Below, in pieces: positions 1 to 64,000 of a stretch of DNA of 64,000 bases (positions are counted from its first letter, which is position 1; the number at the start of each line of letters is the position of its first letter). This stretch comes from Neovahlkampfia damariscottae. Its lineage: Eukaryota; Heterolobosea; Selenaionea; Neovahlkampfiida; Neovahlkampfiidae. The stretch spans positions 166,847-230,846 of the forward strand of contig JABLTG010000010.1 in NCBI GenBank assembly GCA_016618085.1, in the 5' to 3' direction. The notes beneath the pieces were generated by a model that had not been told where the DNA came from, did not search any database, and was given only the letters and a program-made list of their open reading frames with translations. The translations under genes were made by a program, and so were the position numbers.

Positions 1-524
1 CGTGGATACGCAATCAGAACACAAGAAGATGTAAAAGCTTGTAAAAAAAAAAAAAAAAAAAATTGTTAAAATTATTCCTTTTAGTGCAAAAAGCAAACGT
101 TGAGAGAACAATTGCTCGTTTCAATGTTTTAAGAAATTTAGGAAAAGAAGTTGAAATGTTTGATTATCACGAAATTCTTTTTTCAGCAGCAAAAAACAGA
201 GATCCAACACAAGTAAAGTTTTGGTATGAACTTTTGAAAAAGGATAATATGGATCCAAATCTTGAAACTTTTGGTATTGTATTAGGTTCATGTTGTATCG
301 AAGGAAACACAGTTAGAGGTATTTTCTTCATGTCTGAATTAGCTCATTATTTTGATACTGTTCCAGCTAAATTCTTAGAAACTATGAGTTTCATGTTAAA
401 AGAAGATTCATCTCCAAAAGAAGCGCAACTTTTCGCTGATTTAGCAAAAGCTGGAAAACCTGTTGCTTCAAAAGTTGTCCAAGAAACAATTAAAACTGTT
501 CTAAAAAACCCAAAATATGAATAA
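1..524 (+). CDS. PPR-like helical repeat protein (3' part only)
   Basis: The gene is cut by the left window edge. Exon 1..40 and exon 85..524 are joined by a 44-nt intron (41..84; starts GTAAAA, ends TTTTAG); splicing gives a continuous reading ...VKALQKANVERTI.... The visible 160 or so residues form paired helices with about 35-residue spacing, including segments such as FDYHEILFSAAKN and LETFGIVLGSCC followed by GNTVRGIFFMSEL, which is the look of pentatricopeptide (PPR) repeats. PPR proteins usually bind organellar RNA; whether this one is imported cannot be judged because the N-terminus is missing. It ends in TAA. Alternative: another TPR-like alpha-solenoid. The family call rests on pattern only. 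Confidence 0.6.
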
Positions 525-664
525 ATTTAAATTTATTTTTCTTTATCCTAAAAACCAATAAATATTCGAACGGAATCAGTTTTTGATTTCATTGGTTTTC
601 AAAAAGTTTGAAACGAAATTGAAGTTTAACTGTACTGCTCGGAAAAAAAGGAAAATAAAAAAAA

Positions 665-3600
665 ATGGAAAAAGAAAATAAAGAAAACACTGAAAAAACG
701 TACAAAACATTCCTCTTTTCTAATAGAAATTAAAACAGATCTCCATCAAAGAGAAAAAGAATTTCTTCAGATTCATCAGAAAATGAATCACCAATTGTAA
801 AAAAGTGAATATTTAATTTAAATTTTAATTCTTTTGCAAGAAATAAAAGAAATTCTTCAAATGTAAATGAACCATCTTTATTGGACGAACAAGAACAAAT
901 CGAAGTTGAAGAAGAAATTCAGTTGGAAGAAGGGTAAAGAAAAAAAATTTTTTTTTTTTAATTCCAATAGGATGACTGAAACTCAAAACTTTATGTATGG
1001 TTTTACTACCAATTTAAGCAAAGAAAAAGAAGAAGAAATTCTCACCATTTTAAAAGGAAATGATGAAGGAAAACAATTTGAAGCCATTTCTGAATTATGT
1101 AATTTTTTTTCAATGGCAGATCCTGATACAATATCTACTGTAAGATATAGAGAGTATACGCCTTTATTACTTCAAATTTTAGCTGATGGTTATAACTTTG
1201 AATTAATGTTGCTCGCAACAAGAGCTTTGACTAATGTTTGTTATTTTTTAGAATTAATCATTTAGATGATCGACTCTTGTCCTCCTACGTCTTCTCAAAT
1301 TGTCTCAAATCAAGGTGTTTCAATCTTAATTGTAAAACTTCTCAATATTGAATTTATAGACCTAGCTGAACAATGTATTCAATGTTTATATTTCCTATCA
1401 GAAACCCACGGAATCGTTTTGTTAAAACAAGGTGTTTTATCCGCTAGTTTAATGTTTTTTGATTTCTTTGGTATTCATGTACAAAAGAACGTATTAAAAA
1501 TGGCTGTAAATTTATGTAAAAGAATACCACATGACGGATTTGATCTTTTTCAAACTGTTTTACCAAATTTAACAAATTTATTATCATACCAAGATGAAAC
1601 AAGTAAATACCAAATTTTTAACATTTTTAGTATCACAAAACGCTTGTAAATGTTTTTTAAAAGCTGCTTTGAATATACAAAATGATGAGAAAAAAATTTT
1701 ATTGATGGCTTCTGAAGGACTTGTTGATCAACTTTTTCAACTTGCAAAAAAAAAACCGTATGAAAATTTAATTTTTTTTTAATTTTTTTTTAGTACTTTG
1801 AATGAAGATATAGTTTATATTTGGACTATTTTAGCAAGAGGTTCAAATAAATTGGTGACTTCTTTATTAGAAAATGGAATAATAGATGTTATTGATAAAT
1901 TCTTCAATCATGAAGACCAAAAGAATTCAAAACTCAAACAAAAGTTCCCAATAGCAGAAATGGTTTCTTTTATCAAGGATATGAATCCAAGAACAAATGT
2001 TTTTACTTCTAACATGTCTTTGGAATCAAGAAAGTTTTTATTTCAATCATTAGTTGAACCTGAATTACCTGAAGATATTATTGATTCAAAATCGAAAAAA
2101 ACATTCAATACAAGAGAGGAAATACTCAAAGATAACAAAGTGATTTATTTAGAATACGTAAAAGTTATTTTACCATTGATCATCAAAACTTATACATCAA
2201 ATATGAACCAATCTGTGAAATTAAATTGCTTAACAATTATAGGTACAATAATTTATTATTGTTCAGAAGAAATGTTAAAAGAGATCTTAATGGTAATTTT
2301 AAATTTCTTTTTTCTTACCTTTGCAACAGGATATTCCAATTTCCAGTTTTTTGACAAGACTTCTTGGTTCAAATGATTTGATTTTTATTTCAACAGGTAT
2401 TCAAATTTCAGAAATTTTGATTCAAAAACTTCCTGATATTTTCAGTATCTATTTTGTTAGGGAAGGTGTTACAAATGAAATTAAAAAAATTTGTGGAGAT
2501 GAAAAAGGAGAAATTACACTTTTGGATGAAATGAAAAAGAAAACAAAAATTGCATTTGATGTTGCTATTGAAAATTACAGAATATCATTACAAGAAACTA
2601 AAGATGAAAAAATGGATGAAGAAAAAATCACAACTGAAAATTCTGAGGATTCACAAAAAGAAACAAAAAAAACATTAGATTTACTCAATCATATTACAAA
2701 AGGAATAAAAAATTTAAACAAACCTGAAAAAGAGAAAAAAGGTCAATTTCAAAAACCATTTGTAGAGGCACCAGAAATTCCATTTTCAAGTCGAATTGCA
2801 GAAAGTAGAGATAGTTTTAAAAATCCTGAATTATTAGAATTTGTTGTATCATCAGCTCAACAATTCAGAAATAAAAATCTTCTTAAAAATGATTTTGAAA
2901 GTAACATTTGTAAATCATTAAGAGAAGTTGGTGAAGAATTATTAGAATTAATGGAACAACCAAATGAAGATGATGAAACTGAATTATTAAACAAAATAGC
3001 TGCAATTTTAATATCTGATGAAGGTATCAGTACATTTGAATTTTTAGATTCTGGAATCATCAAAGTCTTGTCAATCTATTTACAAGATAAATCAAAACTA
3101 CATTTATTTTTGAATATTTTTGATAAAGAAGCACAAATTCAACATTCAATTTCATCACCAATGCCATTATTTGATAAATCAGCATATAGTATTCAAGATG
3201 GATCACCATTACCAGGAACTGAATCACCATCAATTGTTGGATCACCTGCATCAACAAGTAGTATTTTTAATCATCAAGTTACTGGATCACCTTCATCATA
3301 TTCAGCATCACCTTTTCGATCATCTTCATTGAAATCATCACCTTTCAAATCAAAAAGAGAAAATACTTACTTAATTGAATTTGTCAAAAAAATACAAAAT
3401 TGTTTAACACAATCAGAAAATTTACCTTTGATCATCAAAGAAACTAATTCTTTATTTTTTGGATTGACAAGTGTTTTAGGAATCGTTTCAAAAGAATTTA
3501 GAATTCAAATTCAAAGTTTAGATAATAAGGATATGATTTTTAAAGATGTTGAAGTTTCACCTTTGGAAAGAATCAAAATTATTTCAGAAATGATCCCAGA

Positions 3601-5404: not shown

Positions 5405-5426
5405 AATAAATTTTTAATTTGTTTTG

Positions 5427-5807
5427 TCAAAATGGTTGCAAAATAGTTTTTTCCAATTTTTCACTGATTTGTGTTACTATTGGATAATTGAATTTTTCAT
5501 TGATTTGGATTTCCAATGCAGCAATGTTGTATAATAGATAAGAAGGAATTTCGTTTTGTATTTTTGTTTCTAAAGTTTCTTTTGGTATGTCAAAGATGAT
5601 TCTATTGTTTTTGTTTGTGAATGATTTAGTTTCGTTTATCAATTCTGTTTTTTGTTTTTTGAACGCATAGTCTGCAACAAAAAAAATTTTAAAATTAATT
5701 TCTTCAATTTTCTCTTCTTCTTTTTCAAAATTTATTTCAAAGTTAATAGATTCATATAAATCACTTGGATTTATAGAGTTCAAAATAAATTTAGTTATTT
5801 GAAACAT
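5427..5807 (-). CDS. small protein of unknown function (126 aa)
   Basis: Single-exon frame, read from the first in-frame ATG at 5807. The frame stays open upstream, but only as far as a TTG, so ATG is preferred. The protein mixes a hydrophobic N-terminal helix (MFQITKFILNSI), an acidic middle (FEKEEEKIEE) and a C-terminal half with IPSYLLYNIAALEIQ. No cysteine clusters, signal peptide or motif that I recognise. It is arranged head to head with the next gene (start 5911) over a shared CCAAT box at 5843-5847, and tail to tail with the HECT gene (22 nt between stops). A real gene is likely from promoter and coding composition; the function is unknown. Confidence 0.5.
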   Translation of the reverse strand: MFQITKFILNSINPSDLYESINFEINFEKEEEKIEEINFKIFFVADYAFKKQKTELINETKSFTNKNNRIIFDIPKETLETKIQNEIPSYLLYNIAALEIQINEKFNYPIVTQISEKLEKTILQPF

Positions 5808-5842
5808 CAAGAGTGTTAAATTTATTTTCTTTTGACAATTGT

Positions 5843-5850
5843 CCAATCAT
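5843..5850. promoter_or_regulatory. CCAAT box shared by two divergent genes
   Basis: CCAATCAT lies 36-64 nt from the starts of the minus gene (5807) and the plus gene (5911). It is the same pentamer found beside nearly all starts in the window. The bidirectional role is inferred from position. Confidence 0.5.
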
Positions 5851-5910
5851 CTCACTTTTTGTTTTTCTTCAAGACAAAAACAAAAGACAGCTTTTTTTTT
5901 TTTTTTATTT

Positions 5911-6159: not shown

Positions 6160-6330
6160 ACAGAAATTCAGGTGGCGCACAATTGATCATCACTGAAAAA
6201 TAAAATTTATGTAAAAAAAAAACATAATAGAAGGCTTTAATTGTCAATATTACAATAATTGAATATAGTTGGCAATTTGTAATTTTAAAATAATAATTCA
6301 ACATTTTATTTACAATTCATTGAAAGAAGA

Positions 6331-7029: not shown

Positions 7030-7040
7030 TTTGTTGTTTG

Positions 7041-7049
7041 ATTGGTTAA
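7041..7049. promoter_or_regulatory. CCAAT-type start-proximal box
   Basis: ATTGGTTAA on the plus strand (TTAACCAAT on the gene's strand), 11 nt before ATG 7029 of the TIP30-like gene. Matches the window-wide motif. Confidence 0.5.
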
Positions 7050-9759: not shown

Positions 9760-9767
9760 TGTCCAAT
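9760..9767. promoter_or_regulatory. CCAAT box abutting the dipeptidase ATG
   Basis: TGTCCAAT on the plus strand reads ATTGGACA on the gene strand and directly abuts its ATG (9759). The motif must lie at or downstream of the transcription start if this ATG is used. Confidence 0.45.
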
Positions 9768-14689: not shown

Positions 14690-14936
14690 TCGACCAATCA
14701 AAAAGCAAAACGGATTAATATTAATGATTGTGTTAAAAATAACACAATTTCCTTCAATCAATGAGTTATTGTTTAATTTATTATTATTAAAATTATTACA
14801 GGATGTGAACTCGTTTTTCTTCTGCAAAACTTGGCCATTTGGATCATATATTGAAAAATTATACAATAAAATGAAGAAAAAACATTTTATTCAGCTATTT
14901 TGCATTCAACTTTGCCAACATTATGTTCAAATGTGA
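14690..14936 (+). pseudogene. decayed copy of the 5' end of the C2/propeller gene
   Basis: The plus strand resembles 16141-16260, the promoter and first exon of the C2/propeller gene. Both copies share a run around TTCTTCATGTTT..., then GACCAATCAAA, then the same reading around LKITQFPSIN versus VKVTELPSIN. After about 60 nt of similar exon the resemblance fades, and the reading frame carries on with no C2 consensus into the 3' end of the neighbouring beta-helix gene. The copy's CCAAT box now serves the divergent CPBP gene. I read it as a fragment of an old duplication; it could instead be a chance survivor of promoter duplication. Confidence 0.35.
14691..14700. promoter_or_regulatory. CCAAT-type start-proximal box
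   Basis: CGACCAATCA on the plus strand, 9 nt from ATG 14682 of the CPBP gene, as ATTGGTC on that gene's strand. One of the closest spacings in the window. Confidence 0.5.
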
Positions 14937-15870: not shown

Positions 15871-16182
15871 GTTTTCAATACTTTTCTGATTTGAATAGTT
15901 AACCAATCAAACAAAGTTTATAAATTGATTTATCCAATTGAAAGGCTTCTAATTTCTTCATCCCCACAATTGAATCAAAAATGAAAAAATAGGTGATTTT
16001 TCTTTAGGACAGTTGATGATGTAAAATTTATTTTTCCTTTTTTTGGGTTTATAGTAATAATAATTATATCTAATAATAAAATAATTATTTTTTGCTTACA
16101 TTACAATGTGAGCAATAATTCATGTTCATGATCCAAATTCTTCATGTTTATTTGACCAATCAAATTGGAAAAAAAAACCAAC
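15871..16182. promoter_or_regulatory. divergent intergenic region, 312 nt
   Basis: Separates the beta-helix gene (minus) from the C2/propeller gene (plus). CCAAT boxes at 15899-15907 and 16152-16162 lie close to the two starts. The middle is A+T-rich (poly-A/T and ATAATAATTAT runs near 16055-16095) with no reading frame or structured RNA that I can see. Confidence 0.4.
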
Positions 16183-21724: not shown

Positions 21725-21735
21725 ATTGGTCAAAT
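21725..21735. promoter_or_regulatory. CCAAT-type box between divergent genes
   Basis: ATTGGTCAAAT, 10 nt upstream of the kinase-kelch ATG (21714, minus) and about 180 nt upstream of the TFIIB-like gene (21917, plus). The 202-nt interval holds no other evident feature. Confidence 0.5.
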
Positions 21736-23387: not shown

Positions 23388-23396
23388 ATTGGTTAA
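23388..23396. promoter_or_regulatory. CCAAT-type start-proximal box
   Basis: ATTGGTTAA, 13 nt before ATG 23410 of the aminotransferase. The same ATTGGTTAATTTATC string recurs at 43136 before the ankyrin gene. Confidence 0.5.
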
Positions 23397-24684: not shown

Positions 24685-27600
24685 TTATTGCTCTGTTGGA
24701 TCAAGACCCAAATCAATCATAATTTCATTCAATTCTTGAGTTTCATCTTTTTCTTCATTTGGTTTTTCTTCAGGAATTGGATTGCTCTCTTTTCTCTCTC
24801 TGAGAGCAAGAAGTGATGCTGTGCTGTTTGTTTTATCATTTGATTCTGTACCGACAAGGGATGTTGAACTATCATTTTTTCCAAAATTACCCAGAAGTGC
24901 AGAAGAACTATTATTCTTTTCATTCGTTTCAACAAATGAAGAAGTGCTTCCGAACATATCTCTTGTTCCAGATTTTCTGATTGATTGTCTTGTGGATCCT
25001 CTCGAACTTTTTCTTATTGTGACAGTATTAGAGAATTTTCTTTTAGTTTCTTCCATCTCTTGTCTCTTGATTTCATCAACAGGAACTACTGTTTCATCAA
25101 ATTTCCTGAAGGAACTGATGATTTTAGCTCTGCTACTTGATTTTTGTTTCAATTTTTTCTTTTCTTCAGATGCAAGTTGAGTTGATAACTTATCAAAATC
25201 AATACCACCACTGCCTCCTTGAGAATCAATGAATGCTGATTTTCTTTGAGCAAATTGATCTTTTCTTTTTGTCATTTCCAGTTGAATGAGTTCTTTTTCC
25301 ATTTCTTTAGTCATTTTATTATCTTTTGTATATTTTTTCATTTTCTTTTGAAATTCTGGATCATCTTTCTTCAATTGTTTCATAAATTCATCTAACTCCT
25401 TTTCTTCTTCAGTTTTCTTTTTAAATTTCTTGACAATTTTAGTTGAAACATTTGTTCCTTTTCTCTTTACCAAGAAAAGTTTTCTGCTTATTCTTTTCCA
25501 AGAAAGAAGTTCTGCAAAAACATCATTCATTGTTGAGAAATTTTCTTCTGGAGTTTCAGTATCTGTCATGAAATTCATTGGTTTATATTCATAATCAACA
25601 TCCCAAGGGACAACTTTGACTGTAAATAAATCATCATTTTCATCTTTTTCATGTAAAGCAACAATCAATTTTCTTGTTTCTTCTTCGTGTTCTTGATTTT
25701 TGATAATTTTACGTAATTTATCTTTCAATTTTTTTTTATCATTTTTTCTTCTTGTGTTTGCATCCCATAAAATCATGCTGACAACAATTACAGTTGAACC
25801 AACGATAACAAAGAATGCTAAGTATTCAGCAAGATCTTTTGTTCCATCTGGAAATGAATCAACAAAAAATAAGAAACCAAAAAACAGAGTTCCCATTGTG
25901 ACAATGATAACAAAATAATCCATGACATTATGAAATTTTCTTTTGAAAGGAACAAAATTGGTGTGTAATAAAAATCCCATGTACAACAAGAAAATACCAG
26001 CAACAATAACCAACATTTCATCCAAGAAAATATAGAGAACTGATAAAATTGTCTTTCTCATAGTAATGACAGCTTCCCAAAAGAATAATTTGTTTCTGAA
26101 ACGTGATAACATGAATTTGTTTCTTTCTCTGAAATTGGTTTGTAAACTCCATTTGGAATAGTTAAAGTAAATTAAAATGAAATAAATTGCAGCTCCACCA
26201 CCAAAAACTAAATACCAAACAACTGTTAGTGGCATCATTGTAAACCAAGTACCATCATAATAACAACGAATATCTGGTGAACTATTCAAAGTATATTGAC
26301 CATCAGGTTGTTTGGTACAAACAAATACTTCAGAAGCAGTAGTCATAATAAAAATAAATGAAAAACTTAAGAAAGCAAAGAAGGCATTGATAATCCTATT
26401 AAGAATTTTGACTAATTCTCTGCCAGATGATCTTTCAGTTACTGTCCAAATCATGAAATTTCCTATAGAACCAAGAATATTCCTAAGAATAGTCAATAGT
26501 TTTATAATTATTGTCTTTTTTTTTCTATTTGGTTCATCATCTTCGTCATCGTCATTGTCTTTGATTGGTTTGATGTATTTAACTTTAATTTTGATTAAAC
26601 TGAGTCCATATGAAATACCAGTAGCTAAAATGGATCTAACAATTAACATTGTGTATAAAATACCAAAACTTGTTAAAAAATATATTGGCATCATCATTTG
26701 CAATACCCATAAAGAAACATAACTCATATTTGGGAAAATACAATTTGGACTAAGAAAATCAGTATTGAAATTTGTTGCAGAAGATGCTGTTAAAGTTCCT
26801 CCGATTAATGATGGCCATTGAATATCGAATCTAGCAAACATAGACAATACTTGCCAAAATGAAAACGCGATAGCAATGGAAGCAATATGATGAACTTTAG
26901 CCGATGAAAGAATAAATAAGAATCCTGTTATCAGTGCCATAGCTCCAGCAATACCTAAAAGACGCAACCAAACAATCCATTGTTCTCCACATTCTGAGCA
27001 TTTTCCTCTGAACTTGTACCATGAATTGAGACATTGTCCACAACGAACCCCTTGATATCCAGATGTACAATTTTCTGGATTATGTCCACCACATGAAACA
27101 GTTGGTGTGCATGCATAGAAGTTGAAATAATTTGTTTTTGAATTCCAATAACCTGGTAAAGCTAACGGTTGTGTTGTATTTACACCACAATAAGCTCCTT
27201 CAGGACAAGCAACACATTTTTTATTCGCACCAGCATGTTCAGTAAATTCATGATTTAAGAAGAATCCCTTTTCACAAAGGCAATCATCAAATGATGATGC
27301 TCCTTCAATAATACTTGATGTATTTGCTGGACAACTTAAACATGAAGTAGCTCCTGAGAAACTGTTGTAAGTTCCTTTTTTACAAGCAATACATGAATAT
27401 AATCCAGATGATGGTTTGAAGGTTCCAGGAGGACATAAAGTACATGGTGTTTTATAATTATCTGCTGTGTAACCTTCAGAACATGTTTGAAATTCAAATT
27501 TTGTGCGATTCAAAGAATGCCAATCAATCTTGTTGTAAGATATTTCGAACGTAACTTTTTGAGCGGGATGTGAAGGAGCAGTACAAATAAGTTGTTTTTG

Positions 27601-30600
27601 ATTTTTCCATTCACAAGGAGAAGGACAAAGAAGATTACCAAATCTACAATAAATCTCAGGTGCAAATATTGGTATCGTTTCAGTAATATTTAAACCTAAA
27701 ATTGTATATTGAGTATTTCCATATGATGGTCCAGAAGATGGTTGAATTGCTAATAGAGTTGGTTCTTCATAAAATAATATGGTTAAAATGTTTGAATTTT
27801 GTTCTCCTTGAGCGTTTTTCAAATTAACTTTAATTTTGTTTCTTCCTGTCATTATTGATTGAGGAACTTGACAAAATATTGTTGAATTTGACTCTTTGTA
27901 ATAAGGTTTTGTTTCAAAAATTTCTGATCCATTAATCGTATTGAATTCATCATAAAATGAAATTTTATCAGCATATTGAAAGTCTAATCCAAATATTGTC
28001 AATTCAAAATCTTTTTTTGTTGTGAATATTGGAGAAATTCCAGTAAAAACTGCTTGTGGAAATGAGTTAACATAAACATATGAAGTGTATTTATAATCAT
28101 ATCCACCATTGAAACTAACACCTAATTGCATAGTGAATGGGAATAAAACATCATAAGGAATATTCAATTCTGACATCAAAGGTGATACAAATTTGATAGT
28201 TTTTGTTGGATTCACTGCATCAAATTCTATTTTCGAAAGTGTGCTTAAATCATATGAAACAAATTCATTTTTCAAAATAATTTTTAAATCACCAGTTGGA
28301 TCAAAATTATCACCAGAGATAGCAGATGAAATATTTCTGGTAGCAAAAAAGTTATCAAGACCATCTTGCTCTGTTGGAGCAACTTTTGTGACAGTGTATT
28401 CCTGAAGAACTTTAGTGTAAGTGTTCACTGGATGATAATTTAATCCTCCATTAAATGAAATTTCAACTACAGCAGCAGTAGATCCAATTGATGGAGGGAT
28501 CACACTTGCTTCAAATGTAGTTAAAGTTCCCTGAACTTCAATGAATTGCTGTACAGTTGCGAATATAGTTCGCACAAAAGAGAACTTGAATATTGCTGCT
28601 TTGAATGATGCAAATTTTCCAGTAACTTTAATTGCATTTTGACTACCAGATAACAAATTTGTTGCAGGTTGAACAGAAATAGTTCCTACTTCAGAAAAGT
28701 CGTAAAATTTAACTTCGTTAGTGTCAAGAAAAACAGTAGTTCTTCTGCTGTTAATTTTGTTAACAACTTTTATCAATAATTTGTAAGTTCCTGTGATTGA
28801 TGGTACTGAACTTGTATTGCAAATTGAGAACATATCATTGCAAGAAAGTCCAACAGATGATTGGTTTGATATCAAGCTGAATTGTAACGTTTCTACAGTT
28901 TCATTGTATGATAATTCTTTTGCTGGAAACCCAGAGAATGAAATCCCATTTGTGAGAACTCCAATTGATACCAATTCAGGAGATACTATAATTTTTCCTG
29001 ATTTAATAACCTTGAATTTCATTGAAGTTTGAAAATAATAAAACCCACCATCAAATGTTAATTTAAAAGATAAACTTCGAGGAAATACTACATCCACATC
29101 ATAAAATGGTTCAACATATGTGACTAAATGAGTTGAATTGACATACAATGCTTTTGATATTTTCTTAATTGATTCGTCATAAATTTCAACATATATTTCA
29201 GGTGAATTGAAGAATCCATTTCCAATTACATAAACTTGTGTTGATTTTGAATGAGATAGATCGGTTGTTGATACAGATGAGATTGATATTTTACTGTCAT
29301 CATAAATTGTCAAAGAAGCATTTGTTGTTTGATAATTTGTTTCATCCAAACTTAAGGTAATATCAGATGTACCAATGGTGCTGAATTGAGGAATAACACA
29401 TTCCAATGAAGTAGAAGAAAGTAAATTGCAGGATGTAATTTGACTAATTCCTCCTGATACTGATTTCATTTGAATTAAGGATCCAAGGGTTTTGATATCA
29501 GTAACAGTCGTCAATAAAACTTTGTTTGATTGTGCATTTACTCTGATAAAGCTGGAAGGAGCAACATATTTCACTTTAATTTGTGGATAAAAAGTGATGT
29601 ACGGCACCAATGAGAAGGCTTTTACATTGTTCATTCTTAAATCAAGTTTGATTTTTTTTGGTTTTGAAAAATCGGAAAATAAATGTTCAATTGAAACCAT
29701 GTCACATGTAGGTGAATTAATTCTCGAAGAATCTGAAGTACAATTGAGTAAAGTTAACGAATCAGCTTGTTGTAACCCAAGAGAGAATTGATAATTTTTG
29801 TAAATTGAAGTTGGAAATATTTCTGACATGTACATATTGAATTGATAACCTCCACTGGCAGGACCATATTTTGGACTGAAATCAAAGAAATTTATGTCAG
29901 GATTTGAAGCCATAACTTGAATTTGTGCAGGAACATTTGTGAGTTCCACATCTCCAATTTCAGATGTAAATACAAGTTTCAATTGAATGTTCTCATTTGG
30001 TTTGAATTTTGAAGTTGACAGTGAACATCCAAAATGTTTTGCAACTGCAATATCACTTTGATATTCATTAATTCCAATGTTGAAATCAGCATCATTTAAA
30101 GAATATACAGTGCTTTGAGTGAAGTTGCATTTGAACTTGAATCTTTTTGAATTTAAGTTGTTCAAAACATTTGAAATAACACGTGAGCTGCGATATTGAT
30201 TTTCATAATATGATAATGCATAAGGCTTTAAATGTTGGAGTGTCATGTTTGTATAGTATGTTAAATAATCCACTTCAATATCATCTGAACCAACTTGGGA
30301 TGTTTTGTGATAAACTTTCAAAGTGAAATTTAAATGACTCGGTAATTGAAGAATTGTATTTAAATTACTTTGTGAAAGTGAACATGAAGGAAAAATTCCT
30401 GAATAGTCACAACTGACATTTGATTTTGTAGCCATATCAATATTTGGAATCATTGATAATTGATAGTTGAATATATTTTGTGGTATAGCAAAATTCAACC
30501 GAGCATTTTGAATCTTGTTCAATGCTTTAACAGAATTCCAAGTGACTGGTTCCCGGATGAACAAATAACTTTCATGATTTGATGTCAATTTAAAAGATAC

Positions 30601-33600
30601 AGCAGAACTTGCGTTCATCCAAAGTGTGATATTCAAAACTTCTACAATATTTGCAAAAGAACGCTTTTCAACATTGCAAGTGAATATATTTCTAGATTCT
30701 GGTTTCAATTGAGCCTTTGAAAGTGTCGCAGTATCACCATTTGATTCTGATTTACAAAAAACTTCTCTTGATAAAATTAAATCTTCTTTCAATTCCAACG
30801 TGACAGAAGTTGTTAAAAATCCATTTCCATTGATTTTATGTCCTTGAGCAAATGGATAAACTGAAAGAGTTTTAATTTCATTTAAAAAGTAAAATTCTGT
30901 GTTATTATTTTGATTTTTAGAATACTTCAAAGGTTTGTTTGTTAAAGGTGATTTGATTCTAATATTAACATAATCCGAAAATGGATAGATTAAAGATGTA
31001 GTAATCGAACAGTCAAAGCTTTTCCCATTTAGACTCGCTGATACAACAGTTCCATTGAATTCACATTGATATTGAGCCTTTGCACCATAAATGTCAGCAA
31101 TACTGACATCTGTTAAAAGTGAAATTTGACGTGTTTTTGAAACTGATGCAAAAGGTGAAACAGAAACAGCATTGATATAATCAATGAATAAAACATCAAC
31201 TTCATTGCTTGAGATCAAAATTTCTTCACGATAAGCTGAAGAATCTTTGTACCATAATGTGAGGACGTCTGTTGATCTGATAGTTGAACTTACTTCGCAA
31301 ATGTATTCAGTTGGTTTTGTGATATCATAATACGTTTTCACATAACTTGTTCCTAATTTACATTGAACACGAGGTTTTTGATCTGTTAATAAATTAACAT
31401 CAATTTGAAGCACAACAGTCATATTTGTCAAAGTGTTCAGGTATGCAATATTGTTGGAATTTGATTCAAAAACTATTGGTGATTTTTTCAAAACAGTGAA
31501 TTTTTTGATTTGCGAAATTAAAAACATTGATCTAAATTCTATACTCTTTAAATTTCTATAATACAATTGAATATCATATGTTCCTGATTCTTCAAGTCCA
31601 ACCAATGGAGTCAATGAAGTTGTAATGTTTATAGTATTTTGCACTGCTCCCAAATTAATATCTTTACGTTCATTTGCAGCAGGTGCGAATACTAAAAACA
31701 ATGAACCCTCTTTGATCGAAACTTCTTTGTTCATGACAAAATTAAATGGAATAGTTGTGTCAACAATTGAAATTACTTGAGGATGATATGATAATATTTC
31801 ACGAGCTTCATAGAATATCCATGGAACAGATAAGTTAACCGTGATAGCAGGATTTGTGAAAGTCATTGCGTATGAGTTGAATATTGGAACTTCAGATGTT
31901 GAAACAGCAGGTGAAGTACAATATAAAGATGAAACTTTTTTTACACAATCAAATACATACTTATCTTTGATAGAATCAAGTTGAAATGTCACATTTGAAA
32001 CAACACGATTGTATTCCAATATGATGACTGACTGATTTCCAGTTGGGTACCCATAAGAAGGTGTGAAATAATCAGAGCTGATAACTTTAAAAGTTTCGTC
32101 GATGGTAGTCAACTTTCTTTCAATTCCTTTTGCTTTCATCCAAATACTGATATAAAACGTTTCTTCCAATTCCGAAAGAACATCACAAGTAAACACTCCG
32201 TTTGTACTAGATGTTGCATTTGCTACTGTAGCATATCTGGAACTATTAACACCATATTTGCAGTTGAATTCAGTTCCAACACCATAATCAAATCCTGTGG
32301 ATGGAAATGCTGTACGAATGGTCAATGATGTGGTACGATTCAAGATAACAGCAACAGGAGAAAGACCAGTAATTAATGATGGTGTAGCAAAAATAACTTC
32401 TAATGAATTGTTTGATAATTGAAATTGGTAATTGTCTTGCTTATACCATAAAGTTAAATCTTTTCTTCCACCAACTGTTGTTCGAAGAATTGTATCAAAA
32501 ACATGAGTATTCCCATACAATGCCGTGAGATTAGTTGAAATTCCATAACCAGAAGAATCAGAGAGTTTCACTTGAATATATTCTGTCAAATGTGATGGAA
32601 TCATTGTGCTGATGTTCACTTGAAATAGTGCAAATGTTGAGGTATAAAAGAATTGAACTTGTGATGATTTTGAAAACGATATATCAGCTGCTTTTAAGAA
32701 ATACACAATCTCATTGGATTCATTCTTTGTAATAAATATTTCTTTGTTTGCAGATAATGAAGGGGCTTTGAAAAATGATTTCAATTGTATTTGAGTTGAT
32801 TTGTGATCATTGAATACGACTGTACATTTCATAGAAGCAAAATCAACAACTGTAGCTAATTGTGAAGAATTTGTTCCATATCTGCAATAAAACTCTGGAC
32901 TTTGTGGTAATGATGATTGTAATGCATTTGCATCAAAAGTTGAAGTCAAATTGACATCCGTTCCAAACAAAGCAGCCAAAGGGAATAAATTTGATATTTC
33001 ATGATTTTCATATAAAATTAATCCTTGAGAAACAACAACAATATCAATAAAAGGACCATTCAAATTGTATTGTAATCTAAAATTCGAAGAAAATATATCT
33101 GCTGATTTCAAAGGAACTGAATTCTTCATACAAGAAATTACTCCGCCTCCATCAACCGTGCATGAAAAAATTTCACCATCAGTGGAAATCACTCGATAAG
33201 TATAAGATCTGTATTTCAAAGGAACAACAAATGATCCAGAATTTTTCTTTTCAATAGCAAGTGATGTCGAATCTGGGAATGTAGCAAATTCTGGAACAAA
33301 TTTGAGACTCACCATTTGAATTGTTGAATCTGATGTTGATATAATTCCTCCTAAACCATTGACAGAACTATCATTGATGAAGAACGAAACTCCAACAACT
33401 TCATCTATTCCACGTGAATTAAAGGAGCAAGTAAAAATATTTTCGTTTGAAGCATCTTTTGTAATTGGAATGTCTTCTGAAAATACTCTACAAAAGTATG
33501 AATAACTTGGATGAAGTTTTTTAGTGACATTGAATGTTGCAGTGAATTTTGAACTTGAATGAGTTTTACTATCTCCAACAAATGGTAATTCTGAGTTAAA

Positions 33601-36600
33601 AGTGATATTGTCTTTGAAATAATTTGCTGAAACAGAGAAAATTGAAGTTTCATTGAAATATGAAGAAAAAACTTCCATTTGATAATCTAGTTTCATTGGT
33701 GTATGAGTCAAAGATAAATCTGAAATATAGCATTTTGGTTTTGTCGATTTGAATTCACATTGAATATATTTTGTCGGATTTGAATTTGAAAATTCAGGGA
33801 TCAATTTTACTCTATAAGAATCATAACTTACTTTCTGTTCAAGATTTGGATCTGAAAAATTCAATGAATAGTTTTGAAACAATAATTCTGGAATAATTGT
33901 CAAAGGTGTTTCAAATTGAATTGGTTCTTTGAAGTATACATAACTTAAATTATTTCTCGAAAGAATGAAATTCAAATTAGTTTCTTCTGTTGAAGCATTC
34001 ATATAAAGATCAAAAACAACATTCTCTGCATTTGTGTTCAAATTTGTAACTTCCATAAAACAAGAAACTTGAGATGAATTCCCAGAAACATATGAAGCTT
34101 TTGAATACCGAATTATTCCATTATGATTATATTTACAAAATAATCCAGAATCAGTGAACAAATTAGAAGCTGTGTGAATTTTGATAGTTGAATTTTTTGA
34201 TGTTATTTCATTGCTAAATCTATCAACAAATGGATAGAGAACTGTAGTTGTGACCAAATTCATAAATATAAATTGAATTGTATTTACACTTGCCAAAACA
34301 TAATCGTTTGAAGGTGTATAAACAGCCCAAATTGCAATATTGATTTTTTTTCCTGATGAAGCAAAAATATTTGATTTGATCAAATTTCCAGTGAAAGAAG
34401 CTTCAAAATCTGTTGAATCATATCTCACAACAAATTTAACTTTTCCAAAATAATCAACAGATTTGTAATCGTTCCATAAAGTGATTGTTGAATTTGTTAC
34501 TAAAGCAGCAACAGGATCAATTTTTGAAACTGAAAATTGTTTCAAAAATCCAAAAAACAAAGTGTTCGTGTTCAATGTAAGAATAGTATCAGCTGGAGTA
34601 GTTACAGTTGGAGTTGCTGAATAAGTAGTTCCTGAAGTAACTGTTATTGCAACAGCATCATTATTCCCAAAGAAAACTGAATAATCATCGATTGTGCCAG
34701 TTTTAGATTCTTGAATTGGGAATGAAATTGTTGTCAAAGCAGTGTTGCAACCAACTATATTTCTTCTAATCTCTATTCCTTTGAATGTCACAACAACATC
34801 TTCACAATTTGATTTCATTTCTCCAAAAGAAATTAATGATTGACTATTGATCAAATATTTCAAGTAAAAGTTGGTAGAGATAGTGAAAGTAAATGAATAT
34901 TTGAGATTGTGTTGATTCAAGAAAGTATTGTGGATATCTTTCACTTTGTAAGCTCCCAAATTTTTGAATTTCAATCCAAGCGCTGCGTAACCTGCATTTG
35001 TTGAAAATATAGAGCTGTTGTAAATGGTTGTGCTTGGAGCAGAAGTTAGAACAGTTGTACCATTAAAACTACCAAAAACTCTTTCTTTCAAGTGTTCAGG
35101 GATTAACGTTGTATCTAATTTCATCAATGCTTGATATTGAGTGTCTGTATTTCCAAATTGTTTGCTTGATGCATCAAATGAAATAGTTCCAATTTTCAAG
35201 AAATATAATGAAATGATATTTGATGATAATTTTGATCTAAATCCAAATGTATCACGATACCAAAATGTTAAATTTCTGTGAACTTCTGAAGTGATATTAC
35301 ATTGAAATTCGTTTGATGAAAATTGAATCGCTTTGTATTGACTTCCATCTTCCAATTGACATTCAATTGAATCAACAAGTTCTGAAGGAATATTGTTAAC
35401 ATATGAAAAAGGAAATGCATTCAATCCATTCAATGATATAATTGATCCAGATGGGTAAATCTTGTTTGGTTGGAAGATATAAAACTCAAATGGTTTTTCA
35501 TTCAAGATCATTTTAAAGCTTCCAACAACTGCATAAACATTCATTGTTAATGTTTCAGTATTTGAAGATTGGATATTTTGACAACTAATTGTTGTTGAAT
35601 TAATTGCTACTGCAGTATAATTTGTGGTTTGTGAAAGACAAAAATAGTTCACATCTTCAGTTGAAGATAAAGTTGAAGAATTGAAAGTTATCAATACATT
35701 TGTATTTATACCTGATAAAGCTGCAGTAGGATAAATTTGTGAAATTGAATTCTTTTTGTAAAATACTGTTTGTATCGTTGAAATAACAACAAATCCATCA
35801 TTGAATGACAAAGGAATAACCAAAATATCTCCTGGATAAGTCACCAAGTCAGATTTTGTGCAACTTTGGATATTTCCAGATAAAAATGTGCATGGAATAT
35901 CAATTGAATACAAAGTATTGTTCAATTTATATGAAACAGATGGTTTCCCAGGTAACAAATTTCCTGTTGAATCAGTAATAGCAATACTTCCAGCATAAGA
36001 ATGATAAATTTCAGGGGTTGTGAGTTTCGGATCAACTAACCAATATGATGCTGAATTTATCGAAATATTATGAGTTTGAGTTGATTCATATAAAATAATC
36101 TTCTTTTCACCAGTATTAGGAGCATTTAGTGGAATTGTACAATAAATTTCTGTTCCTGAAGTAGAAACGGGTATTGAGGTTACAAAAATTCCTTCATTGA
36201 AAATACCGCATTTTACATTTTGAAAAGGTAATTTTCTATAACGTGTGATATTTTGGTCACAAGTCAACACTATAGTTTGTGATTTCCCAGTGTTATCTGA
36301 ATATATTAAATGTCTATCAGATGATAAAATGTTTGTATAAGGTAAATTTACAATCATCATATCTGTTGAAATTCTTTCACTCAAAGTTGAATTGTATTTC
36401 CATGAAAGTGTTAAATATTGGTCAATATCAGATAAGTATTGGTTTCTTGGACATGAAACAAATGATTCAAAAATTGAAGCTGAATCTTTTGCAAATTCTT
36501 TTGAAACTGATCCATCTAATTTAGTTGAGACACAATGCACTTCAGCATCATCTAAAATGTTCTTACATTCCGAAAGTACTGAAGTTGAATAATTCAAACG

Positions 36601-39600
36601 AAGGCTAGTTTCATGAGGCAACATAATATAATTATTCAAATTTAATTGAAGTTTTTTGCAAGCATTTGAATCCAATTGATCACACCAATAAGATTTCTGG
36701 TGGTTCTTTGTTGACACACCAAATTGTTTAGTCAACCAAGTTGATGGATAAACTCCACAACCACTATTTCCTTCCATTGATATCATTTGAAAATTTGAAA
36801 AATAAGTTGACAAAACTTCATAATGTGTTCCTGAATTTGAAATTTGATTGTAACTAAGATTTAAACTTTTGATAGTCGATGGAAGAATAGAATCCAAAAC
36901 TGTTGAACACCTGAGTTTGTTTGTTGATAAATCAAGTGTAATTAAAGCAGTGAAATTGAGCATGTTTGGTATTTCTCCAGAAAATCCTTCATTGCTAAAA
37001 GATAGTTCTGTAATTCTAAATTCACTGTCGCATGAAACTTTGCTTGATCCAAAACCTTTGTTACAATAGCAAGATGGACCTGCATCAATACAAATTTTCA
37101 AATCTGTCATGTTCGTTTTACAGCCTTCTGATGAGTTGCATACTTTCTCAACAAATTGAAAAAGATCAGAAAATTGACAATTGTTTCCAAAATATGATGG
37201 TTGACAAACACAACTGTCTGGAGCGGTACAATTTCCAACTCCTGAACAAACTTGACTTGTTGAAGAATCTATTCCAAAGCAAATATTATTTTGGCATTCA
37301 TTTCCAGCATACCCTGCATTACATGAACAGTTATTTGGTGAAACACAAGATCCTCGAATAATACTTGTACATGATGAACTAATGTTTGATGATTTTCCAT
37401 AACAAATTGGGAATTGACAATCATTTCCATCATATTCAGAAGAGCAGTTACAAACATTTGGTGAAATACAAGATCCATGAGATGAACAAACGGAACTGAA
37501 GCTGTTTGAGATTCCATTACAAATTGTGAATTGACAATCAGCTCCATCATAAAACTGGTCACAAGTACAATTATTTGGTGATAGGCAAGATCCTCTAGAA
37601 TTACAAACAGATGTGTTGGTTGAATTAATTCCCTTACAAGATGCAAATTCACAATTTATACCAGACCAAAATGTATCACATTGACAAACTTCAGGACTTG
37701 TACAATTACCATTTCCAGAACAAACAGATTCACTCAATCCACTAATTCCTTGACAAACAGGAGAATTACAATCATTTCCTGACCATTGAGAAGTACAATT
37801 GCAAGTATTTGGACCAGTGCAAGAACCTTGTGGATAGCTGCAATTATTTGTCGGTTCACAATGAAATGTGCTACAATTTGTATTTTTCCATCCAATTAAG
37901 CAGGAGCAATTATTAGCACCAACACAGAACCCATTTGAATTACAATCAGCCACACCTACACAGGCACTTTCTTCGCATTGAGCTCCTGAATAACCAGCAG
38001 ATACACAAGTACATGTATCAGGAGCAGAACAAATACCTCTTTTGTTTGTACAAACAGTTGGATTTGTTGAAACAATTCCATAGCAAACAGGAAGGGAACA
38101 ATTTGATCCTGAATATTGTGAACTGCAAGAACAATTATTTGGCCCTTCACAACTTCCATGTCCTGAACAAGAGTTTCTATCTGCGCATGTGAAAGTTTCA
38201 CAATTGTTTCCAGTCCATCCACTTTGGCAAACACAATTGTCAGGGGCTGTACAAGAACCATGAGAACTGCATACTGTTGAATCATTTGATGATATTAAAT
38301 TACAAATATTAAATTCACAATTTGCTCCAATGTATCCTGAATTACAAAAACATTGTTCTTTTCCAATACAACTTCCAAGTGCGCTACATACTGAAGATTG
38401 ATTTGATAGCTGTCCATTGCAAGTATAGATATTACATTGATTTCCAAAATAGCCAGAATTACATTCACAATTGTTTGGTGAAGTACAAGTACCATTTCCA
38501 GAACAAACTGAATTAGTTTCTGTGGATCCCACACCAAAACAAACAGGATGTTGACAATTGTTTCCAGTATATTCACTGTTGCAAGTACAAGTATCAGGAC
38601 CAATACAACTTCCTTGACTACTGCAGACAGAAGTATCATTTGCAAGTTTTCCAAAACAAACTGGAACTTCACATTCATTTCCAACAAAATTAGATGCACA
38701 TGAGCATAATTCATGGGAAATACACGTTCCATTAGATCCAGAGCAAGCAATAGGATCTGTTTTTCCATAGCACATTGGTGTTTGACATTCATTTCCTGTG
38801 TAACCAGCATTACAAACACAGCGATCAGGATTTTGGCAATATCCGTGACCACTACAAACAGAAGCATTATTAGCAAGTGTTCCAAAACAAATAGGAAATT
38901 GGCATTCATTTCCACCAATTCCTGATACACATAAGCATGTATCTGAAGAGGTACATGTTCCATTGACACCTGAACAAGCAAGAGGATCTATTTTCCCATG
39001 ACAGATTGGAGTTTGACATTCATTTCCAGTATATCCAGAAGAACATGCGCAGTTGTCAACATTTGAGCAAACACCATTTCCACTACAAACTGAAGCATTG
39101 TTTGAAGCGATGCCATAGCATAATATAAGTTGACATTCGTCTCCAGTGTGCCCAGTTTTACAAGAGCAAGTATTTGGCTGTGTGCATGTACCATTTTCAG
39201 AAGAACAAGAAGTTGGTTCAACTTTACCATAACAAATTGGAGTTTCACAATTGTTTCCTTGATATCCTGAATTGCAGCTACAACTATCTACAGATGTGCA
39301 ACTACCATGAGATGAACAAACATTAGCATCATTTCCAGCAATACCAAAACATCTTGGATATTGACAATTGTTTCCAGCATAATCAGATCCACAAGAACAA
39401 GTATCAATTCCAGTACATGTTCCATTTCCGCTGCAAACTGCAGCATTATCACCAGATATTCCATTACAAACAAAATATTGACATTCGTTTCCAGTATATC
39501 CTGTGTTACAACTGCAAGTATTAGGTCCAGTACAGGTGCCGTGTGAAGAACAAACAGTACCCACTGTTCTTTCTGTACCAAAGCAACTCCAAGTTTGGCA

Positions 39601-41246
39601 GTATTTTCCAGAATATCCAGTTTCACAATTACAATTATCCAGTTTCATTTCTGTAAACGGAAATATGGTGTAAACTTGATTTGTTGAACAAGATCCATGG
39701 TCATTACAATATCCTTTGAATCCTTCAAAATTTACAACCTCAAACTTTACTGTTGTGTCAGTGTCTTTTGAATGATGTGTTAATCCTCCATAAAATGGCT
39801 CAGATAATACAATATTTTGTTCACCAATTTTTGTGTAAGTTCCTCCACTTGTGGATTTATACCAACAAGAAATAGTGTTTCCTTCTTTAATCAATTTAGC
39901 ATAATGTTTATCGTTTCCAGTTAAATAAGCTGTGTCTAACTGTACAAGACGTTCATTTATTGATGTTGTTTGACGAGTTGGTCTGTAGAAAAAATTAACA
40001 GGTTTTTTTCTTGGAATTTGACAAATAGCAGTGACTGGATAAATATCAAAAGAGTTTGAAACATCTTCTCTTAATCCAATTCCACCAGCAGCTTTATCAT
40101 CACCTGTTAATTCAGTAATTTCAACAGTGATTGTTCCATTTCCGCTGAGTTTTTTATAACTGAAAAGAAAAGCGTCATTGTCCAGTTCTTTGTCATAAGT
40201 TTCTTTCATATTAGATTCCAAAAGCACACTTGTTGAATCAACCGTAAATTTAGGACGAAAACCATTCAAATTATTTTCATCACCAAAAGATGCAATGATA
40301 CTTTTCCTCCATTTATTATCACCGCACTCATTCCAAGCATCTTTTGTTTAAAAAGAATAAAAAAAAAAAAAAAAAATACCAATGTTTGCACAACCTCCTC
40401 CTCCGTATTTGTATTCTTGAGCGGAAGAACAACCTGTTTGAAAGCCTTTGAACCTCAAATCTGTTACATACCCAAGATCATTGTTGTCTTCTGGATCAAA
40501 AGCTATTCCATAATATAAACTCTATAAAAAGTTATGCTTTTTTTTTCAAACTGTTGGCAAACTTATTGTGTATGAATAAAGTAAAGTCCATGTTTCTCTG
40601 TCGTCTGATTGGTATGCTGAAAAAATATCACCACTTCGAGTGAACCTACAAAAAAAAATGTTAGTCTCTTTTTTTTTTACTTGATATATCCATGATAAAT
40701 ACCATCCAAAGATGGATAATTAATTGGTGTTACAGTTGGATTTGTAGCTACAGTTTGACGGTATAAAAATTTATGTGGTTCTGTTATCGTTGGTTTTGCA
40801 TATTTAATTTCATTTTTAAGTGCCATGGCAACCATTTCTGAATCAGAGGCTAACGTTTTGCGAACCTTATTTTCAAAATTTAAAAAAAAACAAAAACTAC
40901 CATCACAGCCAAATAAACATGTTGACTTTTATCTGTCGAAGAAAAAGCGTTGTTTGTAGTTCTACCTACTCGAACAGTTACTTCTCCGTCACCTGTTAAT
41001 TGCTGAATGTTTAGTTTGATATTTTTTAATTACCCAGTTCACGTAACAGATAGAATCATCTACTTTATTTCCAAGGTATCTATTTCCATCCTTATCAGAT
41101 CCTTGTATAGTTATAACGTTTCCACTTTCTGATTTCGAACATCCAGTAACACTACCCATTGTAGATATAACTGAGTTCATGTTATCCAGTGTATACGTTG
41201 TCTTCATTACAGTCAATAGTATGAAGAAGAAAATAAAAACCTTCAT
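24685..41246 (-). CDS. giant EGF/LRR/TIG cell-surface receptor, multi-pass membrane protein
   Basis: Six exons on the minus strand: 41034..41246, 40901..41002, 40681..40865, 40552..40645, 40380..40521, then one exon of 15,656 nt, 24685..40340; 5463 residues. Order: signal peptide (MKVFIFFFILLTVMKTTYT), a lectin/LamG-like N-terminal region, about 22 teneurin/tenascin-type EGF repeats (about residues 460-1310; C-S-G-x-G-x-C-T and C-x-C-x-x-G-Y-x-G-x-x-C), a short leucine-rich stretch (about 1310-1490), about 3000 residues of beta-rich repeats including TIG/IPT-like units near the end (PSSGPSYGNTQYTILG), a Cys-rich GCC2/GCC3-like part (about 4530-4700; CPPGTFKPSSG), some eight membrane helices (about 4700-5120) of the TRP-like type found in protist surface proteins (FWEAVITMRKTIL), and a charged coiled-coil tail. 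A surface adhesion or sensory role is inferred. Confidence 0.85.
37150..39690 (-). repeat. array of about 22 EGF-like repeats inside the giant receptor gene
   Basis: A coding repeat with a period of about 115-120 nt (39 residues), with consensus C-Y/F-G-x(5-8)-V-C-S-G-x-G-x-C-T-x-P-x-x-C-x-C-x-x-G-Y-x-G-x-x-C-Q. Copies differ in sequence but keep six cysteines. One pair class (YGKxDPxACSG..NGTC, three or four copies) alternates with the VCSG/VCSS class, which suggests duplication of two-repeat blocks. Long open frames on the opposite strand and in another frame here are artefacts of the repeat composition. Confidence 0.85.
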
Positions 41247-49908: not shown

Positions 49909-50119
49909 TCTGTTCTCTAACGATTTTTGTTTGGGTTTGAAGAAGAGAAAAAAACGATTGGTGGAATTTTCAACTAAATGACCAATCAAAATATAAGGGT
50001 GATTGAACTTCGATTTTGGTCATTTTCTGAACATTTCTTTAATTTTATCGTTTTTCATTTCCAACAAAAAGTTAGAAACTTTTTTGTCCAATCATCATAC
50101 TTTTTGAAACCAAAACATC
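49909..50119. promoter_or_regulatory. bidirectional promoter with three CCAAT boxes
   Basis: Between two divergent starts (49908 minus, 50120 plus): ATTGGTGG at 49957, TGACCAATCA at 49979-49988 and TGTCCAATCATC at 50085-50096. The last lies 23 nt before the plus-strand ATG. Confidence 0.5.
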
Positions 50120-52531: not shown

Positions 52532-52613
52532 ATTGGTCTTCAATTCTCCTTGGAGTTAAAGCTCCTTGATTGGCTGTTTTTATCCAATCAACGAGTTTTC
52601 TGTTTAGACCAAT
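52532..52613. promoter_or_regulatory. cluster of four CCAAT boxes before the pirin gene
   Basis: ATTGGTC (52532), ATTGGCT (52569), CCAATCA (52584) and GACCAAT (52607) in 82 nt, with CTCCTTGGAG and GGAG...CTCC hairpins between. The last box lies 57 nt before ATG 52671. The density exceeds that of any other promoter here. Confidence 0.45.
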
Positions 52614-53475: not shown

Positions 53476-53486
53476 ATTGGTCAAAG
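53476..53486. promoter_or_regulatory. CCAAT-type start-proximal box
   Basis: ATTGGTCAAAG, 8 nt before ATG 53495. Clear example of the ATTGGTCAA form; the intergenic gap after the pirin stop is only 86 nt. Confidence 0.55.
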
Positions 53487-57382: not shown

Positions 57383-57467
57383 TCATGGAACAAAATTGTA
57401 AAAAAAATAAAAAAATTGATTACATAAAAGAAAATTGTTTTCATTTTTACCTTCAACAAGAGAAATG

Positions 57468-57476
57468 ATTGGCTAA
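57468..57476. promoter_or_regulatory. CCAAT-type start-proximal box
   Basis: ATTGGCTAA, 5 nt before ATG 57482 (7 nt from the ATTGGCT core). It supports 57482 as the start of the OGFr/PARG-like gene although the next splice is unclear. Confidence 0.5.
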
Positions 57477-57481
57477 ACAAC

Positions 57482-59807: not shown

Positions 59808-59825
59808 TATTAAAATAACTTAATT

Positions 59826-61304: not shown

Positions 61305-61308
61305 TTTG

Positions 61309-61316
61309 ATTGGATG
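61309..61316. promoter_or_regulatory. CCAAT box 4 nt from an ATG
   Basis: ATTGGATG on the plus strand; on the gene strand CCAAT then TCAAA runs straight into ATG 61304. A second pentamer (GGCCAATT) lies at 61322-61329. The remaining intergenic sequence to 61496 shows nothing further. Confidence 0.5.
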
Positions 61317-61496
61317 TTAGTTGGCCAATTTTGAATAGAAAAACCTGTTGAAAAAATTGAACCACTAAAACTTGATGCAATATCACCTGGAGAAACTATT
61401 CAATTGCCTTTTGTAAATAGAAAAAAAGAAATAGTTTATTTATTTTTATTGAGAAATCGACAAAACTGGAATTTTTGATGAAAAGATTTATAGTGA

Positions 61497-62130: not shown

Positions 62131-62136
62131 CGTTTG

Positions 62137-62159
62137 ATTGGTAAGTGATTGACCAATCA
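62137..62159. promoter_or_regulatory. paired inverted CCAAT boxes
   Basis: ATTGGTAAG (62137) and TTGACCAATCA (62149) face each other over 6 nt, 6 nt before ATG 62130 of the small secreted protein. The interval 62160-62300 has no evident further feature. Confidence 0.45.
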
Positions 62160-62300
62160 GGTTATTGTATCTTTCCTCATCCAATGCCTGATCACACTCT
62201 CAAATACATTGAATAATAATAATTGATCCTAAAATCCATGAATAATATATATCTAGAAGAATAAAATGGTCTGTCAAAATGTATGAACATTTAATAATTT

Positions 62301-63437: not shown

Positions 63438-63613
63438 CTCTATTTTTGTGTGAAAAAACTGATTGGCAGTGAGAAGTCTATTTTTAATTTCAATCAAAAA
63501 GAGGTATTGTTCAATAAGACTCTTGGACAATTCATCATGTTATTATAATAAACTTCAGTTTTCAACTTGAAGTGTGGTGTTTTAGATAAACAAGTCGTGC
63601 TTTCAAATTTAAT

Positions 63614-63731
63614 ATCACTTGTTGGACAACAAGGAGTGTTATTCACAACAAGTATGTAATTAGGCAACAAGTGATGTTTTTAAACAATAGATGCTGTTAC
63701 TCACAACAAGTGATTTATTTCACAAAAAGTT
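63614..63731. repeat. degenerate CAACAAGTGAT short repeats
   Basis: Copies: ATCACTTGTTGG (63614, inverted), ACAACAAGG (63626), TTCACAACAAGTATG (about 63643), GGCAACAAGTGATG (63663), CTCACAACAAGTGATTT (about 63700) and TCACAAAAAGTTG (about 63720). Spacing is irregular (18-40 nt). They may be protein-binding sites between two divergent genes. Confidence 0.5.
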
Positions 63732-63824
63732 GCTCGTCTTGAAAAACATTGAGAATATTTCTAAAAAAAATTACTCAATTTGCCATTGCCTTTCACAAAG
63801 AAAATGAGTAATATAATCGGACAG

Positions 63825-63843
63825 TTGGTCAATTCTTGACCAA
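63825..63843. promoter_or_regulatory. perfect palindrome TTGGTCAA-TTC-TTGACCAA
   Basis: Two copies of the promoter element in inverted orientation with a 3-nt spacer, about 95 nt before ATG 63938. It extends weakly (CAG...CTG, 63822-63853). Interpreted as a strong or dimer-binding promoter site. Confidence 0.55.
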
Positions 63844-63937
63844 TGAAAAAACTGCTTTACTTTTCCCTCTACACTCCAAATTGAACAACCAACATCTAAA
63901 AAAAAAATTACATAAGTTTTCAGAGAAAAGATATTTA

Positions 63938-64000
63938 ATGGAGCGTTTTTTGGAATATAACAAAAAAACTCAAAATCTAGAATGGACTTTGGATGTGAAT
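63938..64000 (+). CDS. start of a gene running off the window
   Basis: ATG 63938 opens a frame that stays open for 21 codons to the window end (MERFLEYNKKTQNLEWTLDV...). It lies downstream of the palindromic CCAAT element in the expected orientation. Too short to identify. Confidence 0.45.
   Translation, partial: MERFLEYNKKTQNLEWTLDVN

Follow-up and report, generated by a model that had tools for sequence, protein, structure and literature searches.

Does one short DNA word mark practically every promoter in the heterolobosean Neovahlkampfia damariscottae, and if so, does that word also decide where transcription begins? The question was raised by a stretch of 64,000 nucleotides (hereafter the window; assembly GCA_016618085.1, contig JABLTG010000010.1, positions 166,847 to 230,846), which forms the final 64 kb of a contig of 231 kb, the genome comprising 20.4 Mb in 307 contigs. 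The original prediction suggested that a CCAAT pentamer close to almost every start codon in this window is a universal core promoter element that itself positions initiation. We found that CCAAT in either orientation (hereafter the box) is enriched near gene starts and confined to those intergenic regions that bear promoters. These strings are likely NF-Y sites, near-universal, tolerant of orientation and promoter-proximal, through which NF-Y would open the promoter without fixing the start site.

We analyzed 224 kb, comprising the window and 16 other 10-kb stretches (L001 and L015-L029). G+C content across this sample was 28%, and genes followed the standard code and had very short introns. 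Taking raw open reading frame starts as gene starts diluted the signal (~40% boxed for frames of at least 150 codons), in our opinion because exon-internal ATGs were counted as starts, and we instead used a motif-blind gene finder of our own making, trained on these data. It returned 141 gene models, with ~84% of bases coding, and 247 predicted introns with a median length of 36 nt (finder floor, 28 nt); the median gap between tandem confident models, defined below, was 132 nt, and the genome is very compact. Exclusion of starts less than 100 nt from a stretch end, of models lacking a start and of models with a coding length below 240 nt left 117 starts, with no usable start in L029.

The two strands of the window together contain 253 CCAAT pentamers, whereas 100 dinucleotide shuffles gave 189 ± 12 and never more than 228. 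Compared with shuffled sequence, CCAAT was enriched near starts across the 224 kb, with a box within 75 nt of 77/117 starts (shuffles 23.4 ± 4.2). Among the window starts alone, 20 of 23 were boxed at this distance (4.1 ± 1.8 in shuffled sequence, with a maximum of 12 over 1000 shuffles). As controls, a box was present in roughly the first 75 coding nucleotides of 18/117 genes and, in 35/125 cases, in the 75 nt after stop codons, which may contain the next promoter. The presence of CCAAT near starts is thereby confirmed, and its predicted occurrence beside almost every ATG held for the window and for promoter-bearing intergenic regions, though not for every predicted ATG.

A further comparison concerned the orientation of neighboring genes. 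For this comparison we used regions between confident models, from which L016 and L027 were omitted because the first seems to be a broken-up single gene and the second a mobile element; the same omission applies to the upstream-ATG, box-orientation and tandem-half tests and to parts of others, while the 77/117 figure and the unfiltered counts include both stretches. The confident set also drops regions shorter than 20 nt or beside a model of less than 240 coding nt, reducing tandem regions from 58 to 39, divergent from 31 to 23 and convergent from 30 to 17. Boxes were present in all 23 divergent regions (shuffles 10.8 ± 2.3) and in 34/39 tandem regions (15.3 ± 2.6), but in only 5/17 convergent regions (3.7 ± 1.5). 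Without filtering, the corresponding counts were 30/31, 44/58 and 7/30 (shuffles 15.0 ± 2.5, 21.2 ± 2.8 and 5.0 ± 1.7), so that promoter-bearing regions were boxed in 57/62 cases between confident models and 74/89 unfiltered. The box is confined to promoter-bearing intergenic regions and is not a property of intergenic DNA generally.

Genes chosen by protein family only gave the same picture. In a set composed of NF-YA, SNF5, TBP and eight histone-fold loci (8 of 12 listed matches, being those with a locus given), all 11 genes had a box within 100 nt (shuffles 3.1 ± 1.5) and 9 of them within 75 nt; the region upstream of the TBP gene carries three. Genome-wide, the extended 12-mer TTGATTGGTCAA had 170 occurrences on one strand and 156 on the other, against 0 and 1 for the reversed letters. 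Among the first eight loci listed for this 12-mer, seven lay between gene models, 13-217 nt upstream of a predicted start, and one lay inside a gene model.

No more than 40 nt separates a box from each of the nine window start codons named by the original prediction. Of the predicted gaps, eight held (3, 4, 6, 9, 11, 11, 10 and 14 nt), while the box before ATG 23410 stands 17 nt away rather than 10-14 nt. These nine boxes, followed by four others from the window, are given here with the strand of the gene served:

9763..9767, minus strand: ATTGG on the gene strand, 3 nt from ATG 9759 (-); judged by eye, the gene looks like a secreted dipeptidase (family search without match).
61309..61313, minus strand: CCAAT, 4 nt from ATG 61304 (-) of a GRDP-like protein.
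62137..62141, minus strand: CCAAT, 6 nt from ATG 62130 (-), which another box precedes by 22 nt; the finder fused this gene to its neighbor.
57468..57472, plus strand: ATTGG, 9 nt from ATG 57482 (+).
7041..7045, minus strand: CCAAT (AACCAATCAA), 11 nt from ATG 7029 (-).
14694..14698, minus strand: ATTGG on the gene strand, 11 nt from ATG 14682 (-); the finder took the later in-frame ATG 14580.
21725..21729, minus strand: TTGACCAAT, 10 nt from ATG 21714 (-) of a kinase-kelch protein.
23388..23392, plus strand: ATTGG, 17 nt from ATG 23410 (+) of an aminotransferase.
53476..53480, plus strand: core of TTGATTGGTCAA, 14 nt from ATG 53495 (+).
5843..5847, no strand assigned: only box between two predicted genes that diverge from starts at 5807 (-) and 5911 (+).
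16156..16160, plus strand: core of TTGACCAATCAA, upstream of ATG 16183 (+), with another box of opposite orientation at 16164-16168.
50088..50092, plus strand: CCAAT, upstream of ATG 50120 (+).
52609..52613, plus strand: CCAAT, upstream of ATG 52671 (+) of a pirin.

A quarter of the window (24685-41180, minus strand) is taken up by a predicted membrane protein of 5,410 residues with EGF-like repeats recognized by eye. Of the two omitted stretches, L016 (G000:C1:50001-60000) appears by eye to hold one large kinase/ATPase/cyclase gene that was split by the finder; 3/8 of its starts were boxed, and most of the unboxed 'starts' are probably false. L027 (G000:C7:20001-30000) resembles a virus-like or Maverick-like mobile element, with one protein carrying an rve integrase domain (Pfam, 33.7 bits) and a long protein with a helicase-like P-loop (by eye). 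Two of its seven starts were boxed, and several were instead preceded by short TATA-like strings and a TTACGGAACCAAATTTCTGG-like word, again judged by eye.

We next asked what the word is. CCAAT was the strongest upstream word, and the top word at every length from 5 to 8, along with most runners-up, belonged to the same motif; a few rare words also scored, such as GCGCC (4 genes). Promoter boxes are flanked by T, T/C, G/A and A before the pentamer and by C/A/G, A and A after it, a preference that is absent at coding CCAATs. Intergenic DNA (23.6 kb) contained 29 copies of the extended form ACCAATCA, where the genic frequency would predict 2.5, and each single change in its CCAAT core reduced it to background level (0-4 occurrences; expected 0-4.9), whereas the flanking letters tolerated some change. 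The NF-Y consensus is RRCCAATSR, and the intolerant core and tolerant flanks fit it.

TATAAA was not enriched (11/102 upstream regions; shuffles 8.2 ± 2.7), and the predicted scarcity of TATA-like boxes was broadly borne out, although TATATA (6 against 1.9 ± 1.3) and TTTATA (14 against 8.2 ± 2.4) were slightly raised. The enrichment analysis, which did not include a position-specific initiator search, gave no second strong upstream word. AACGGTTTT, considered as a second general promoter element, was rejected with 2 occurrences in 224 kb and 2.7 expected. A joined double site had no match in a whole-genome search, pairs of boxes (n = 42) showed no clear favored spacing by eye, and a switch in base composition at the box was not clear. 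Three H2B-like histone genes (L035-L037) have AACGGTTTTTT upstream of the ATG in common with the NF-YA gene (L002).

The genome encodes the full NF-Y heterotrimer, as NF-YA (L002), NF-YB (L034) and NF-YC (L031) matched solved NF-Y chains at 79.9, 143 and 157 bits, respectively. The TBP gene (L004) could be aligned with a solved TBP (9fso) over 189 residues, scoring 330 bits; the missing TATAAA enrichment is therefore not due to an obviously degenerate TBP. In the mechanism that we favor, NF-Y on the box would most likely keep the short intergenic region free of nucleosomes, TBP and polymerase II could then assemble on the A+T-rich flank, and the exact start, by proxy ~20-40 nt before the ATG, would be set by something other than the box. 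A direct link to chromatin may also exist through the single SNF5 gene found, whose predicted protein opens with a DNA-reading segment of the NF-YA type.

The position of the start was approached through leader length. Scanning ribosomes disfavor ATGs in leaders, and we used depletion of upstream ATGs as a proxy. In 81 boxed genes, upstream ATGs occupied 3/1377 positions at 3-20 nt before the start codon, 7/810 at 20-30 nt, 8/810 at 30-40 nt and 136/8910 beyond 40 nt. The ratio of near to distant rates was 0.14 for ATG, compared with 0.89, 0.84, 0.82 and 0.75 for the same letters arranged as TGA, AGT, TAG and GTA. Out-of-frame ATGs, on which the finder's choice of start should exert less bias, were likewise depleted (5/1458 within 30 nt against 46/3240 at 31-90 nt; p = 0.0006). 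No depletion was seen in 21 box-less genes (8/378; p = 0.0015 against boxed genes), which suggests that many box-less starts are mispredicted. Because the depleted zone is short, leaders are probably ~20-40 nt long. The gap from the nearest box to the ATG ranged from 0 to 446 nt with a median of 33.5 nt; 90/99 genes had a box in their intergenic region, 49 within 35 nt and 71 within 75 nt. Since this median falls within the proxy leader length, we infer that the box typically sits about where transcription starts, an arrangement that would not fit a box-to-start spacing of 60-100 nt.

Such coincidence is what would be expected if CCAAT were a core element fixing initiation at a set distance, as the original prediction proposed, and several further results point the same way. 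Core promoter elements are typically orientation-biased, according to one study (PMC3599244), and the nearest box here showed a mild forward preference (49 forward, 28 reverse; n = 77; p = 0.022). The genes in that set were selected for a box between 7 and 85 nt from the ATG, which bounds its median of 31 nt; the unbounded value is 33.5 nt. In tandem regions, boxes favored the ATG-proximal half (43 against 19; p = 0.003), and the pooled box profile peaked 20-40 nt upstream. The sharp positional peak visible in that profile disappeared, however, once upstream space was controlled. Among the 69 genes whose upstream space measured 125 nt or more, 33 boxes started 15-49 nt and 28 started 85-119 nt upstream (p = 0.61), so proximal positions were not preferred, although many of these regions are divergent and the far boxes may serve the neighboring gene.

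A positioning element should also shift the ATG-depleted zone with it. Where the box lay less than 20 nt from the ATG (24 genes), upstream ATGs numbered 0/288, 3/360, 6/360 and 9/360 at 3-15, 15-30, 30-45 and 45-60 nt, and where it lay at least 35 nt away (32 genes) they numbered 1/384, 3/480, 8/480 and 7/480. There was no visible shift between near and far boxes, in numbers that are small, which argues that the box does not place the start. With gaps of 0 to 446 nt, mixed orientation and a depleted zone that does not move, the proposal that CCAAT itself positions initiation is not supported by this sequence proxy, and we consider it improbable. What survives of the universal core promoter element is a box that is near-universal, in TATA-poor promoters with room for a short leader only.

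Alternatively, the bound protein might mainly insulate crowded genes from one another rather than activate them. In yeast, the general regulatory factors Reb1 and Abf1 block read-through or ectopic initiation. A near-universal box where the median tandem gap is 132 nt would suit such a role, and mouse NF-Y maintains the nucleosome-depleted region and suppresses ectopic starts (PMC6624317). Read-through should matter between convergent genes too, and yet convergent regions were little or not enriched, whether confident or unfiltered; we judge this role unlikely, and slightly more so than positioning. The site could also belong to a different DNA-binding protein, such as a homeodomain factor of the TALE type that reads TGATTG. 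Homeodomain sites resemble the extended CCAAT site, and TTGATTGGTCAA has symmetric flanks. Against such a reader, all five CCAAT bases are intolerant of change while the tolerated flanks fit NF-Y, whose genes are present and conserved, making this less probable again. Some boxes, at 3-10 nt from the ATG, would fall inside a leader of ~20-40 nt and be transcribed with it, as an RNA element in the 5' leader would require, but boxes occur on both strands and two divergent genes can have a single box between them, and we give this reading very little credence. Chance or base composition is the least credible of all, with nothing found in its favor, and is contradicted by the shuffle, convergent and coding controls and by the reversed-letter control genome-wide.

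Several points weigh against NF-Y sites as near-universal promoter marks. Outside the window only 57/94 starts were boxed within 75 nt (52/79 without L016 and L027). Our finder is home-made; it joined separate genes (9759, 62130) and split one or more large ones. The control word GAT also dropped near the start (0.44), and the start position itself is inferred from ATG depletion in 81 genes. Finally, the predicted NF-YA has GPNGRF where three aligned solved chains have GEGGRF, GSGGRF and GPGGRF, and because it departs from the GxGGRF of its relatives, its binding is uncertain.

A second match to NF-YA in the genome was not an ordinary NF-YA gene:

L003 (G000:C221:246647-249739), 461-1581, minus strand: gene model of an SNF5/SMARCB1 gene.

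In NF-YA, the A1 helix binds NF-YB/NF-YC and A2 reads CCAAT. The predicted L003 protein begins with MVKRKEYQYESRHIHATRRARGPGGKF, which matches the A2 part, and the NF-YA profile was matched over positions 32-56 of 56 only; the A1 helix is absent, so A1 followed by A2 was not found. After A2 come a Pfam SNF5 domain (111.3 bits) and a C-terminal GATA zinc finger (46.3 bits), and the protein matched SMARCB1 and SFH1 chains. It was the only SNF5 match found in the genome, match counts being lower bounds. The join between A2 and SNF5 depends on a predicted 29-nt intron (GTAA...AAG), which is short even here (5/247 predicted introns were 29 nt or less) and has a common acceptor (AAG, 92/247); in the spliced frame both flanking pieces look coding, with scores of 14.4 and 2.7 nats. 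A box stands 28 nt before the A2 start, whereas the alternative SNF5 start has no box within 200 nt. The alternative to a fusion is a small A2-only gene directly before SNF5. The SNF5 gene appears to carry a CCAAT-reading segment of the NF-YA type. This allows a tentative extension, which we regard as possible though doubtful, in which CCAAT is the default promoter mark and is read twice, by NF-Y and by SWI/SNF via the A2 segment fused to its only SNF5, with the choice of start left to local sequence.

To our knowledge, eukaryotes usually mix several promoter classes. The predicted N. damariscottae system is like the NF-Y/CCAAT system of animals and fungi in its core consensus, in the presence of both orientations and in encoding the full heterotrimer. 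It differs in extent and position: ~30% of eukaryotic promoters are described as having a CCAAT box, located 60-100 bp upstream of the start (PMC13221647), and the median is 94 bp in mouse cells (PMC6624317), whereas here 57/62 promoter-bearing regions between confident models were boxed, and the nearest box had a median distance of 33.5 nt to the ATG. A likeness to another protist promoter is seen in Phytophthora infestans, where a CCAAT box near the start codon has a T-rich 5' flank and, there, equal orientations; that box lies upstream of an initiator at a median of 83 nt, farther than ours, and is one of several promoter motifs (PMC3599244). Entamoeba invadens is another protist whose NF-Y binds CCAAT, but there CCAAT was unenriched anywhere in the 500 nt before the start codon and was tied to encystation (PMC6581852). 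In filamentous fungi NF-Y is likewise linked to SWI/SNF-type remodelers; there it binds SWI/SNF and RSC via other subunits (PMC13221647), whereas here the SNF5 gene itself is predicted with an NF-YA-type segment. Among the literature titles and abstract openings searched, which covered few subscription journals, there was no report of a near-universal CCAAT promoter or of a fused reader consisting of SNF5 with an NF-YA segment.

A genome in which the site of one factor marks practically all promoters, in front of very short leaders, would offer a clean natural test of whether NF-Y clears nucleosomes or places the initiation complex. If confirmed, an SNF5 with an NF-YA-type segment would join sequence reading and remodeling in one molecule, and if the double reading is true, a five-letter word would direct recruitment of the remodeler at almost all promoters.

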